DNA of 64,000 nt from assembly GCF_947497915.1 (NCBI RefSeq), contig NZ_CANMIJ010000001.1:1051611-1115610 (forward strand), given 5' to 3'. Under the pieces are notes generated by a model that was given only the letters and a program-made list of their open reading frames with translations, did no database searches and had not been told where the DNA came from. The position numbers and the translations under genes are program-made. The stretch is from an uncultured Erythrobacter sp. (GTDB taxonomy: Bacteria > Pseudomonadota > Alphaproteobacteria > Sphingomonadales > Sphingomonadaceae). Within the stretch, counting starts at the first letter, position 1. Each line of letters begins with the position of its first letter. Shown in pieces: positions 36,089 through 39,278 of this stretch.

Positions 36089-36508
36089 TTAGCCAAATCG
36101 GCGTGACAGATCGAGCAAGGCAATGGCCGCTTGAGCTGCTTCGCCGCCTTTGTTTTTCTGGCTTGAATCTGCGCGAACCAATGCTTGCGCCTCGTTCTCA
36201 ACTGTCAGGATGCCGTTGCCGATTGGGATGCCGTCCATCGTCAGCGCCATAATCGCCCGCGCGCTCTCACTGGCAACAATTTCAAAGTGATACGTCTCGC
36301 CTCGGATGACGACGCCGATGGCTACAAAGCCGTCATACTCGCCGCTTTCAGCGGCCAGCGCGATGGCTCCGGGGATTTCTAGCGCGCCCGGAACGGTGAG
36401 CACTTCGGCTTCGTGACCGGCAGCAACAATCGCGGCTTTTGCGCCTTCGATCAGCATATCGTTGAGCTGTGCATAAAAACGCGCTTCGACAATCAGGAAT
36501 TTGGCCAT
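36089..36508 (-). CDS. ribH: 6,7-dimethyl-8-ribityllumazine synthase
   Basis: RibH joins 5-amino-6-ribitylaminouracil and 3,4-dihydroxy-2-butanone 4-phosphate to give lumazine, the step before riboflavin. The 139-residue protein has [14 protein letters not shown], the catalytic-His block [15 protein letters not shown] and a C-terminal [10 protein letters not shown] helix. It begins six bases after the ribBX stop, so enzyme and supplier of its substrate are cotranscribed. Type I or II lumazine synthase cannot be separated from sequence alone. Confidence 0.95.
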
Positions 36509-36514
36509 GATGAA

Positions 36515-37762
36515 TTACTCCGGGATGGATTTGAAATCAGAGATGGTCAGGCCATAGCCTTCGATCGCGACAAGGTCTGGACGGGAATTGGACAGCAGGA
36601 TCATGTCGTTCACACCCAAATCGGCAAGGATTTGTGATCCGATGCCGATATTGCGCAGTTCCTCATCCTCGGTCCATTCGCGCCCGCCAATCCGGCTAGT
36701 CAGGATGACGATAACGCCCGATCCGTGATCGCCAATCGCGCCCATCGCGCGTTGCAACGTGCGTTTACGCGCGCCGGGCTGGCCCAGAATATCATCGAAT
36801 ACCGAGATCGGGTGGACACGGGCGAGGGTGGGCTCGTCTGGCGTGATGTGCCCCTTTTGCAGGACATATGCCTGATCATTGGCCACTCGGTTGCGGTAAG
36901 TGATCAAGCGCCATTGGCCGCCATAATCGCTTTCAAAGCTGCTTTCATCGAGACGCTCGACCAAGTGATCGTTGCGCATACGGTATGCGATCAAATCCCG
37001 GATGGTGCCGATCTTGAGGTCATGCTTGCGCGCAAACGTGACGAGATCATCAAGACGCGCCATCGTGCCGTCTTCGTTCATGATCTCGCAGATTACACCG
37101 CTGGGGTTCAGGCCTGCGAGGCGAGAAATGTCGACCGCCGCCTCTGTGTGGCCGGCGCGCACGAGAACGCCTCCATCGCGCGCGGTCAGGGGGAAGACAT
37201 GGCCCGGCGTCACAATATCGTCAGGGCCCTTGCTCGCATCAATCGCGACCGAAACTGTCCGCGCACGGTCTGCGGCGGAAATGCCGGTCGTCACGCCTTC
37301 TTTTGCTTCGATGGAGATTGTGAAAGCAGTTTGCATGCTCTCTTTGTTGTTGCGGCTCATCGGTTCCAGCGCGAGCTGGTCAACGCGAGACTTGTCGAGC
37401 GCGAGGCAGATAAGACCTCGGCCATGCGTCGCCATAAAGTTGATGGCTTGCGGGGTGGCCATCTGGCCGGGAATGATCAGGTCGCCTTCGTTTTCGCGGT
37501 CCTCATCATCGACGAGGATGTACATCCGGCCATTACGAGCTTCGTTGATGATTTCCTCTGCGCCGACAAGGACAGGACGGTCATCATTGGCATCCAGAAA
37601 GTCTTGCAGCTTTGCCAGAGTATCCGACGTGGGGTTCCAATCCGGCTCTGCGGCATCGCGCAAAGTGTTAGCATGGAGGCCAGCGGCGCGGGCGAGGCCG
37701 GCCTTGGTGAACTTGCCAGATGTGACGAGGTCGCGAACGCGTGTGATTGTTGATGTGCTCAT
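36515..37762 (-). CDS. ribBX: HTH-containing RibBX: 3,4-dihydroxy-2-butanone-4-phosphate synthase with degenerate GTP cyclohydrolase II domain
   Basis: This 415-residue protein has three parts. Residues 4-58 form a Cro/Xre-like helix-turn-helix (FTKAGLARAAGLHANTLRDA). Residues 62-265 are RibB, making 3,4-dihydroxy-2-butanone 4-phosphate from ribulose-5-phosphate, with DDEDRENEGDLI and GHTEAAVD. Residues 280-415 resemble GTP cyclohydrolase II but have no Cys at all, so the zinc site is lost and GCH-II activity is unlikely. Proteobacterial RibBX variants of this type are described, and a separate ribA is expected elsewhere. The HTH is odd for an enzyme. A perfect palindrome lies 11 bases upstream. 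The start is the ATG at 37762, and a TTG at 37771 is possible. Confidence 0.92.
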   Translation of the reverse strand: MSTSTITRVRDLVTSGKFTKAGLARAAGLHANTLRDAAEPDWNPTSDTLAKLQDFLDANDDRPVLVGAEEIINEARNGRMYILVDDEDRENEGDLIIPGQMATPQAINFMATHGRGLICLALDKSRVDQLALEPMSRNNKESMQTAFTISIEAKEGVTTGISAADRARTVSVAIDASKGPDDIVTPGHVFPLTARDGGVLVRAGHTEAAVDISRLAGLNPSGVICEIMNEDGTMARLDDLVTFARKHDLKIGTIRDLIAYRMRNDHLVERLDESSFESDYGGQWRLITYRNRVANDQAYVLQKGHITPDEPTLARVHPISVFDDILGQPGARKRTLQRAMGAIGDHGSGVIVILTSRIGGREWTEDEELRNIGIGSQILADLGVNDMILLSNSRPDLVAIEGYGLTISDFKSIPE

Positions 37763-37773
37763 TTCCGGCAATT

Positions 37774-37791
37774 ATCACATTTAAATGTGAT
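37774..37791. promoter_or_regulatory. 18-bp perfect palindrome upstream of ribBX (candidate operator)
   Basis: ATCACATTTAAATGTGAT is a perfect 18-bp palindrome ending 11 bases before the ribBX ATG. A second perfect 10-bp palindrome, GCAAGCTTGC, follows at 37793-37802. An ATGTGA half-site recurs at 37817-37822, 32 bases from the one in the palindrome. The placement suits a repressor. The HTH of the RibBX protein itself is a candidate, which is inference. The order is TCACA-N6-TGTGA, reversed from a CRP site. Confidence 0.7.
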
Positions 37792-37834
37792 TGCAAGCTT
37801 GCTTGAGCATAACGTGATGTGAAATTCTAAGAGT

Positions 37835-37910
<76 letters not shown>

Positions 37911-38012: not shown

Positions 38013-38498
38013 TCAGGCGGCGTCGCGTGCGCCTGCTTTATCCAGATTGCTGCGGATTTCATCGTTGAGCGTTATCGTCGACTCGAATTCGTCGTGAATA
38101 TTCTGATCGATTGTCACCATCTCCATACGCTCTAGCTCGTTCAGTGCTTTCAATGCTCTGGATTGAGAGATGTCGGTGATTTTGTTCAACTGACGCAAGC
38201 TTGTGCTCTGGCCTGTGTTTGCACGCAGGTGGATTGCACGGGCGATAGTCGCCTGATCGGTGAAAATAGACACAGTATCGTTGCCGCTGCCGCGTTTGAT
38301 CGCGGCAAGCCTTTGGCAAAACGATACTGTCTTCGCGCGGATGCGAAACATCGGAAACTCCATCAATTTGATCTCGTGCCTGGCGACAGTTCCATTGGGG
38401 GGGAATGCTGCCGCCAGGTCTTTCACGTCCAACTGTGGCTTTGCGGCAAACCGCTGGCCTGCGACCCGAACGCGGGTGCTCTTACGAACAACCTCCAT
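38013..38498 (-). CDS. putative winged-helix protein divergent from a LuxR-type gene
   Basis: This 161-residue protein has a C-terminal part with a MarR-like order: a helix (SLRQLNKITDISQSRALKAL) followed by NELERMEMVTID and an acidic wing. The N-terminal half is basic and not recognised. The recognition-helix pattern DISQSRALKALNELE suggests DNA binding, but confidence is moderate. The gene is divergent from luxR, and a near-perfect dyad lies in the 69-base gap. The start at 38498 follows a purine-rich AGGTGAGG. It could instead start further in. Confidence 0.6.
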   Translation of the reverse strand: MEVVRKSTRVRVAGQRFAAKPQLDVKDLAAAFPPNGTVARHEIKLMEFPMFRIRAKTVSFCQRLAAIKRGSGNDTVSIFTDQATIARAIHLRANTGQSTSLRQLNKITDISQSRALKALNELERMEMVTIDQNIHDEFESTITLNDEIRSNLDKAGARDAA

Positions 38499-38567: not shown

Positions 38568-39278
38568 ATGCAGGGATATTTCGAGAAAATCGAAGCACTC
38601 ATCGATGTGGGAGAGGTGCTCTGGTACGCAGTTGGTGTCTGCGAAGAGCAAGGCGTGCTGCGCCAAAGCTATCATTTTACACCTTTATTTGATGCACCCA
38701 CATCTGAACGCACCGTTGTTCAAGCGCATGGCTTCGATCCCGAATGGCTCAAATGTTACGACGACTCGGGGTTTCGGAAAAACGACCCCATACCGTCTCG
38801 GGTGATGTCGTATGGCTCAATGGTGACATGGGAAGATGCGCAAAACTTGGCCCCCAACACGCCCGAAAATGAAGTGTTTTTCGCTGCAATGAAGAGATTT
38901 GGCTTGATCCACGGCTTTGGCGTGCCGTTATTCGGGCCGCGCAGCCGCAACGCCTATGCGTCATTCGATTTCGGATATCCTGTAAACCGTGTTCCGGCGA
39001 GCAAGATGGGCATTGTGCGGAGCGTTTCACAAGCCGCGCATCAACGGGTTTGTGTCCTGCTCGAAGCGACGCGAGACAAGGTTGAGCTGTCGAGCCGCGA
39101 GAAAGAAGTGCTTCAGTGGCTCATTCGCGGCAAATCACTGTCTGTGATCGGCGATATTTTGGAACTGTCGCCGGACACAATCAAAACTTACGCAAAACGG
39201 ATCTACGCGAAACTGGGGTCGAATGACCGTGTCGGCGCCGTTGTTAAGGCGTTAAAACTGGGCCTAGTGACGGCCTAA
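38568..39278 (+). CDS. LuxR family regulator with acyl-homoserine-lactone-type domain (solo)
   Basis: This 236-residue protein has an autoinducer-binding domain and a GerE-type C-terminal HTH (LSSREKEVLQWLIRGKSL, then ELSPDTIKTYAKRIYAKL). The six invariant ligand-pocket residues of LuxR/TraR are all present at the right spacing: Trp60, Tyr64, Asp73, Pro74, Trp88 and Gly116. It therefore looks competent to bind an AHL-type signal. No luxI synthase is in the window, so it is a candidate solo. It is divergent from a putative winged-helix gene and its stop overlaps rodA's by four bases. Confidence 0.88.
   Translation: MQGYFEKIEALIDVGEVLWYAVGVCEEQGVLRQSYHFTPLFDAPTSERTVVQAHGFDPEWLKCYDDSGFRKNDPIPSRVMSYGSMVTWEDAQNLAPNTPENEVFFAAMKRFGLIHGFGVPLFGPRSRNAYASFDFGYPVNRVPASKMGIVRSVSQAAHQRVCVLLEATRDKVELSSREKEVLQWLIRGKSLSVIGDILELSPDTIKTYAKRIYAKLGSNDRVGAVVKALKLGLVTA

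Follow-up and report, generated by a model that had tools for sequence, protein, structure and literature searches.

A helix-turn-helix fused to the riboflavin enzyme RibBX, and a palindrome that accompanies it, suggest an autoregulatory enzyme in Sphingomonadaceae

The window analyzed here, a 64,000-nucleotide stretch from an uncultured Erythrobacter sp. of the Sphingomonadaceae, carries a gene for a riboflavin enzyme of the RibB type, 3,4-dihydroxy-2-butanone-4-phosphate (DHBP) synthase, whose product begins with a helix-turn-helix (HTH) domain and whose start codon is preceded by a perfect palindrome. From the comparison of related genomes, we consider it very probable that this protein, HTH-RibBX, is both an enzyme and an autoregulator that binds at its own gene. 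The features on which the argument turns are as follows.

36515–37762, minus strand: HTH-RibBX gene, 415 amino acids, ATG at 37762, stop codon at 36515–36517, the frame being found in relatives
37583–37762, minus strand: N-terminal Cro/C1-type HTH, residues 1–60, from profile matches of relatives and the predicted fold
37658–37681, minus strand: presumed recognition helix GLHANTLR, residues 28–35, its placement following from the Cro/C1 match
36983–37558, minus strand: RibB (DHBP synthase) domain, residues 69–260, Pfam PF00926, E = 6.6e-84
36518–36949, minus strand: RibX, a GTP-cyclohydrolase-II-like domain without the zinc cysteines, by alignment with 4i14
37774–37791, unstranded: predicted proximal operator, a perfect 18-bp palindrome, core TCACATTTAAATGTGA at 37775–37790
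37807–37822, unstranded: predicted distal operator, degenerate, TCACATCACGTTATGC, with 3 mismatches and lying 32 bp upstream of its proximal counterpart

The palindrome stops 11 bases ahead of the ATG, just as the original prediction had read it, and comparison generalizes its core to TCACAT-N4-ATGTGA, in which the half-site centres lie 10 bp, or one helical turn, apart. We compared 109 HTH-positive loci with known coordinates, drawn from 268 HTH-positive genomes of the family and from further matches, and representing 47 genera of this one family (49 loci of the Erythrobacter clade, of which 48 belong to genus g1 and 1 to g38, and 60 from 45 other genera), with 39 copies that lack the HTH (a set of 20 and a further 9 from the family, and 10 from other families). 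Within 90 nt upstream of the HTH-RibBX genes, the best match to the 12 defined positions has no mismatch at 57 loci, one at 40, two at 10, and three at 2. Matches with at most two mismatches thus occur at 107 of 109 loci versus 8 of 2180 shuffled 150-nt upstream stretches (93 of 2180 when three mismatches are allowed), which exceeds chance. The prediction had proposed conservation of the palindrome as its check, and at three mismatches or fewer this holds for all 109 HTH loci; none of the 39 HTH-less copies, by comparison, has a match with fewer than 4 mismatches within 200 nt upstream, and 4 of them reach 3 mismatches when 900 nt are searched. In a base profile of 100 of the loci (49 of the Erythrobacter clade and 51 of other genera, 9 without a proximal site being left out), the arms of the operator are nearly fixed and the centre is variable apart from its edges, which favour pyrimidine/purine; this pattern fits a dimer site.

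The pairing is also seen within single genomes. Two genomes (G291 and G074) hold both kinds of copy and have the site at the HTH copy only: their HTH copies (L092 and L099) show 1 and 0 mismatches, respectively, and their HTH-less copies (L261 and L266) get no closer than 5 and 4 over 900 nt. Novosphingobium sp. ES2-1 carries a plasmid copy annotated as ribB (3,4-dihydroxy-2-butanone-4-phosphate synthase), and this copy combines the HTH and an exact site with different neighbours. Genome-wide, an exact site is present in 156 of the family's 268 HTH-positive genomes and in none of its 43 HTH-negative ones (HTH status judged by eye from E-values, about 1e-32 or better versus 6e-16 to 4e-13, and two genomes without a RibBX match left out), as well as in 6 of 83 genomes of other families; a reversed-pattern control, counted by eye, has matches in 6 of 313 family genomes and 4 of 83 from other families. 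In the 2.9-Mb genome of the window, the exact site occurs once, at the ribBX promoter. One near-site besides it, with 1 mismatch, lies inside an open reading frame (ORF) read by eye as truA, and around ribE, which has a ribD-like ORF beside it (by eye), no site is better than 4 mismatches. Among seven exact sites in other genomes, chosen by eye from the places listed as seemingly away from any known ribBX position, those in G258 and G355 are ribBX promoters, and no riboflavin gene was recognized by eye alongside the other five.

The DNA-binding character of the fused domain rests on its relatives. A Cro/Xre-like HTH ahead of RibB had been predicted, and we recover it at residues ~1–60. The first 60 residues have no Pfam family match in a search with the full window protein, and the window HTH searched alone gives weak matches below the curated cut-offs (CP76, E 0.059; HTH_35, E 0.19). 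Among 50 relatives, however, 37 match the Cro/C1-type family HTH_26 (best E 1.5e-4) and 36 match HTH_3 (best 1.7e-5), both at E ≤ 1, and 46 match phrog_8, a group of phage transcriptional regulators; by these profiles the domain is probably of the Cro/C1 (XRE) type. Within the presumed recognition helix, G28, L29, H30, N32, L34, and R35 (pattern GLHxNxLR) are identical in all 109 HTH-RibBX proteins, as is WNPT at residues 42–45; the key residues that the prediction had asked about in homologues are thus invariant. The domain as modelled by AlphaFold (pLDDT 86.5) appears to resemble HipB, P22 c2, and restriction controller proteins, and seemingly also the N-terminal domain of AcrIIA15 on a palindrome. 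In this model, though, DSSP gives no helix at the presumed recognition helix, which qualifies the resemblance. Sequence searches of the PDB with the HTH domain returned chance-like matches only, and the full-length AlphaFold model was too poor (pLDDT 59) and was discarded.

It could be argued that a separate transcription factor binds the palindrome and that the fused HTH serves otherwise, e.g. in protein contact. Such palindromes are bound by many dimeric regulators, and weak relatives of the HTH exist in other proteins of other Alphaproteobacteria. But RibBX copies without the HTH also lack the site, even when the comparison is between two copies of one genome, and the presumed recognition helix is invariant. 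Since the window genome has no second exact site, such a factor would act chiefly at the ribBX promoter, and it would have to disappear together with the HTH. We therefore regard a separate factor as quite unlikely, and binding by HTH-RibBX itself as the better account of the pairing.

Shared descent could in principle produce the same association. We built a maximum-likelihood tree from the enzyme part of 109 sequences (10 of the 49 from the Erythrobacter clade, 60 other HTH-positive, 29 HTH-negative, and 10 outgroup). On it, the HTH label changes 10 times, and at least 5 of these changes are forced by well-supported branches; several HTH-negative copies sit on long branches, where single placements are unsure. 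The site is found in 70 of 70 HTH-positive rows and 0 of 39 others. Because the HTH changes repeatedly on the tree with the site moving along, the pairing is not a single inherited event; rather, the HTH has switched about ten times, and the site with it. Separately, six genomes (G246, G291, G339, G372, G392, and G074) hold two or three RibBX-type copies each, some on long branches.

In the genomes sampled, the fusion itself is confined to the family. The first 102 residues are matched in 386 of 396 genomes of the order, in two E-value groups. The group in which the HTH is present (E about 1e-32 or better) is restricted to the window's family, and the group matching the RibB part only has E-values of 8e-15 to 5e-5 in other families and 6e-16 to 4e-13 in the window's own. 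The 313 sampled genomes of the family comprise 268 with HTH-RibBX, 43 with RibBX lacking the HTH, and 2 with no match. A search of 385 genomes of the class gave domain matches below 1e-30 in 4, all of the window's family; 13 others show weaker matches (best 4.7e-11) in other frames. The best 80 matches in named genomes, which overlap the other loci and were not added to the counts, belong to the window's family, to Sphingomonadales, or to unresolved alphaproteobacterial or proteobacterial names. By eye, proteins of other Alphaproteobacteria (L238, L241, and L250) contain an HTH relative with W-x-P-x-x-x-T-L-x-x-L-E or a variant of it, and these relatives are a possible origin of the domain.

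Behind the HTH, the protein looks like a working enzyme. Its sequence passes the ribB domain model TIGR00506 of NCBIfam (236.4 bits versus a cut-off of 177.45), and the RibB motifs DRENEGD and GHTEA are invariant in 41 aligned sequences (alignment A3), so that RibB activity is to be expected. The full protein matches PF00926 and PF00925 only in Pfam, which gives no riboflavin kinase domain such as that of RbkR (discussed below); residues 272–356 match part of GTP cyclohydrolase II (GCHII). In GCHII, three cysteines bind zinc; the cysteines of the aligned RibBA structure 4i14 are missing from the GCHII-like part of the window protein, which also scores below the cut-offs of the whole-protein RibB/GCHII models of NCBIfam. 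The window genome has a fuller GCHII match at another place (G000:C2:571203-571709). Because of these two observations, the lack of the cysteines and the fuller match elsewhere, we call the protein RibBX, the name for a DHBP synthase joined to an inactive GCHII-like domain in proteobacteria. HTH-RibBX has RibB and the zinc-less RibX in common with such proteins and adds the HTH; for the HTH-less RibBX relatives within the family, no operator was found.

The regulation of these genes apparently does not involve the riboswitch that is used for the same purpose in other families. As predicted, the flavin mononucleotide (FMN) riboswitch RF00050 was not found in the window genome or in the sampled genomes of its family (stricter filters); among 196 sampled genomes of the order, 16 match it, all 16 in families f2, f5, and f8. 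The arrangement of ribE (riboflavin synthase) also bears on what the operator follows. In HTH-less genomes of the family, ribBX lies directly after ribE in 9 of 10 checked and therefore presumably shares the promoter of the ribE operon. In HTH-positive genomes, ribE is adjacent in 9 of 26 checked and elsewhere in 17, and the operator was seen at the loci examined in both arrangements; it thus tracks the HTH-ribBX gene and not ribE. In the window genome, ribE (G000:C1:264663-265229) is ~0.8 Mb from ribBX-ribH (ribBX at G000:C1:1088128-1089372), the riboflavin operon being split, whereas other genera of the family often have ribE immediately ahead of ribBX.

How the operator might act depends on the promoter around it and on the neighbouring genes.

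37793–37796, minus strand: TTGC, -35-like element, TTG conserved at 97–100% in the 49 rows of the Erythrobacter clade; other genera show it more weakly and at shifted positions
37769–37774, minus strand: -10-like hexamer, starting with a TA invariant in the 49 Erythrobacter-clade rows and ending 6 nt before the ATG
37835–37910, minus strand: tRNA-Lys (CTT), upstream of ribBX on the same strand
36089–36508, minus strand: ribH, directly downstream of ribBX and presumably on the same transcript

In the 49 Erythrobacter-clade rows of the base profile, TTG sits 4–6 nt before the operator core and TA invariantly follows it; in the 51 rows from other genera, the flanks are weaker and partly shifted. 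Across all 100 rows, the start codon lies 12 nt past the core in 71, and no clear Shine-Dalgarno consensus is seen between the two. From this layout we infer a -35/-10 promoter whose spacer and -10 element coincide with the operator, and the ribBX mRNA may be leaderless or nearly so. A 10-bp palindrome, GCAAGCTTGC at 37793–37802, adjoins the proximal operator and had formed part of the original proposal; it is present (by eye), but it was dropped as a conserved element, since only its CTTGC part is kept, in the -35-like position and within the window's own clade.

Alternatively, the palindrome could act as an RNA hairpin in an mRNA leader, in translation control or processing. The sequence could fold into a 6-bp stem with a 4-nt loop, and at pairs 5/10 and 6/9 many changes preserve a pair or G-U. 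Nevertheless, changes that break a pair outnumber double changes that keep it by 17:1 at the outer pair, 18:5 at pair 5/10, and 28:13 at pair 6/9. Moreover, the promoter-like flanks would put the transcription start near the ATG, and in the window Rfam at gathering thresholds gives nothing but a tRNA. The hairpin thus seems very improbable, and it was set aside because uncompensated changes outnumber compensated ones.

Upstream of the proximal site, the prediction had also noted a half-site recurring 32 bases away. This TCACAT half-site is indeed present and appears to be part of a degenerate second operator at a recurrent spacing. At offsets of 31–33 bp, a second site with at most 4 mismatches occurs at 30 of the 60 loci from other genera, for which 22 other 3-bp bins have 0–6 apiece, and at 8 of 49 Erythrobacter-clade loci versus 0–1 of 49 in other bins; in the remaining 41 of these 49, the same scan upstream of the proximal site did not find it.

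Taken as a DNA-binding enzyme, HTH-RibBX could act on its promoter as follows. RibB, which makes 3,4-dihydroxy-2-butanone 4-phosphate, is a homodimer. The dimer would present two N-terminal Cro/C1-type HTHs, one for each TCACAT half-site, and because ~32 bp corresponds to three turns of DNA, a second dimer at the distal site would lie on the same face of the helix. Between the -35-like TTGC and the start of an mRNA that may lack a leader, the space is taken up by the proximal operator, so protein bound there should block RNA polymerase, leading to autorepression of ribBX-ribH. Binding, the geometry of the dimer, the sign of regulation, and any ligand are all inferred. HTH-RibBX could instead bind as an activator, or mainly silence read-through from upstream (from the tRNA here, from ribE elsewhere): the distal site is placed upstream of the -35-like element, where activators usually sit, and upstream neighbours can be co-directed. 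We consider this unlikely, however, as it is the proximal site, nearly always present, that overlaps the probable core promoter. For that reason, repression is more likely than activation, and autorepression of ribBX-ribH is our best reading. The prediction of autoregulation is thus partly supported, by comparison, through co-occurrence, the invariant helix, and the lack of a detected riboswitch; its 10-bp palindrome falls outside the conserved pattern.

Whether the enzyme also senses its pathway is a more tentative matter. Ligand control is plausible, and we give slightly less than even weight to a specific form of it, a ligand-gated autorepressor in which RibX or the RibB active site would sense a flavin or an intermediate and alter the spacing of the HTHs. 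If so, enzyme, sensor, and repressor would be united in one polypeptide, which in much of the Sphingomonadaceae would fill the role that the FMN riboswitch has in other families of the order.

Metabolic enzymes of the BirA, PutA, and NadR type repress genes of their own pathways through their own DNA-binding parts; their enzymes, DNA-binding folds, and operators differ from those of HTH-RibBX. The FMN riboswitch performs the same task, feedback on riboflavin genes, but is an RNA element. Closer is RbkR, the archaeal riboflavin kinase with an N-terminal HTH (HVO_0326, TA1064), which one report lists as "bifunctional as gene regulator and enzyme" (PMC8305020) and whose control of a riboflavin operon is, in another, cited as predicted (PMC10746257). 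RbkR resembles HTH-RibBX in joining an N-terminal HTH to an enzyme of the riboflavin pathway, and it is its nearest known analogue. It differs in being a late-pathway kinase, archaeal and of another enzyme fold, in contrast to a bacterial DHBP synthase with a Cro/C1-type HTH. HTH-RibBX would count as an enzyme-regulator by virtue of its fused DNA-binding domain and a conserved, co-occurring operator at a pathway promoter. In two riboflavin reviews (PMC12542839 and PMC13028884), word searches gave no mention of RbkR, HTH, DNA-binding, autoregulation, or proteobacteria. The prediction knew of no described case; in the literature searched, mainly papers free of subscription and no preprints, we found neither an HTH-RibB fusion nor a RibB or RibBX regulator, but the general idea is preceded by archaeal RbkR.

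To our knowledge, riboflavin control in bacteria without an FMN riboswitch seems largely unsettled. One domain and one operator over 47 genera offer, for one bacterial family, an answer that can be tested directly, and the repeated switches of domain and operator constitute a natural experiment on how an enzyme gains or loses a regulatory role. The finding also hints at what the inactive RibX domain may be for.

Two further observations concern the genus and the locus. In G006 and G191, genomes of the window's genus that are rated 100% complete and consist of 3 and 4 contigs, respectively, we found no match to riboflavin synthase or lumazine synthase, no RibBX match (full protein in G006, first 102 residues in both), and no exact operator site; unless stretches are missing from the sequences, they are apparently riboflavin auxotrophs within the genus. 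In the window, two ORFs upstream of the tRNA, at 38013–38498 (minus strand) and 38568–39278 (plus strand), look regulator-like by eye, the latter ending in a LuxR-like HTH.
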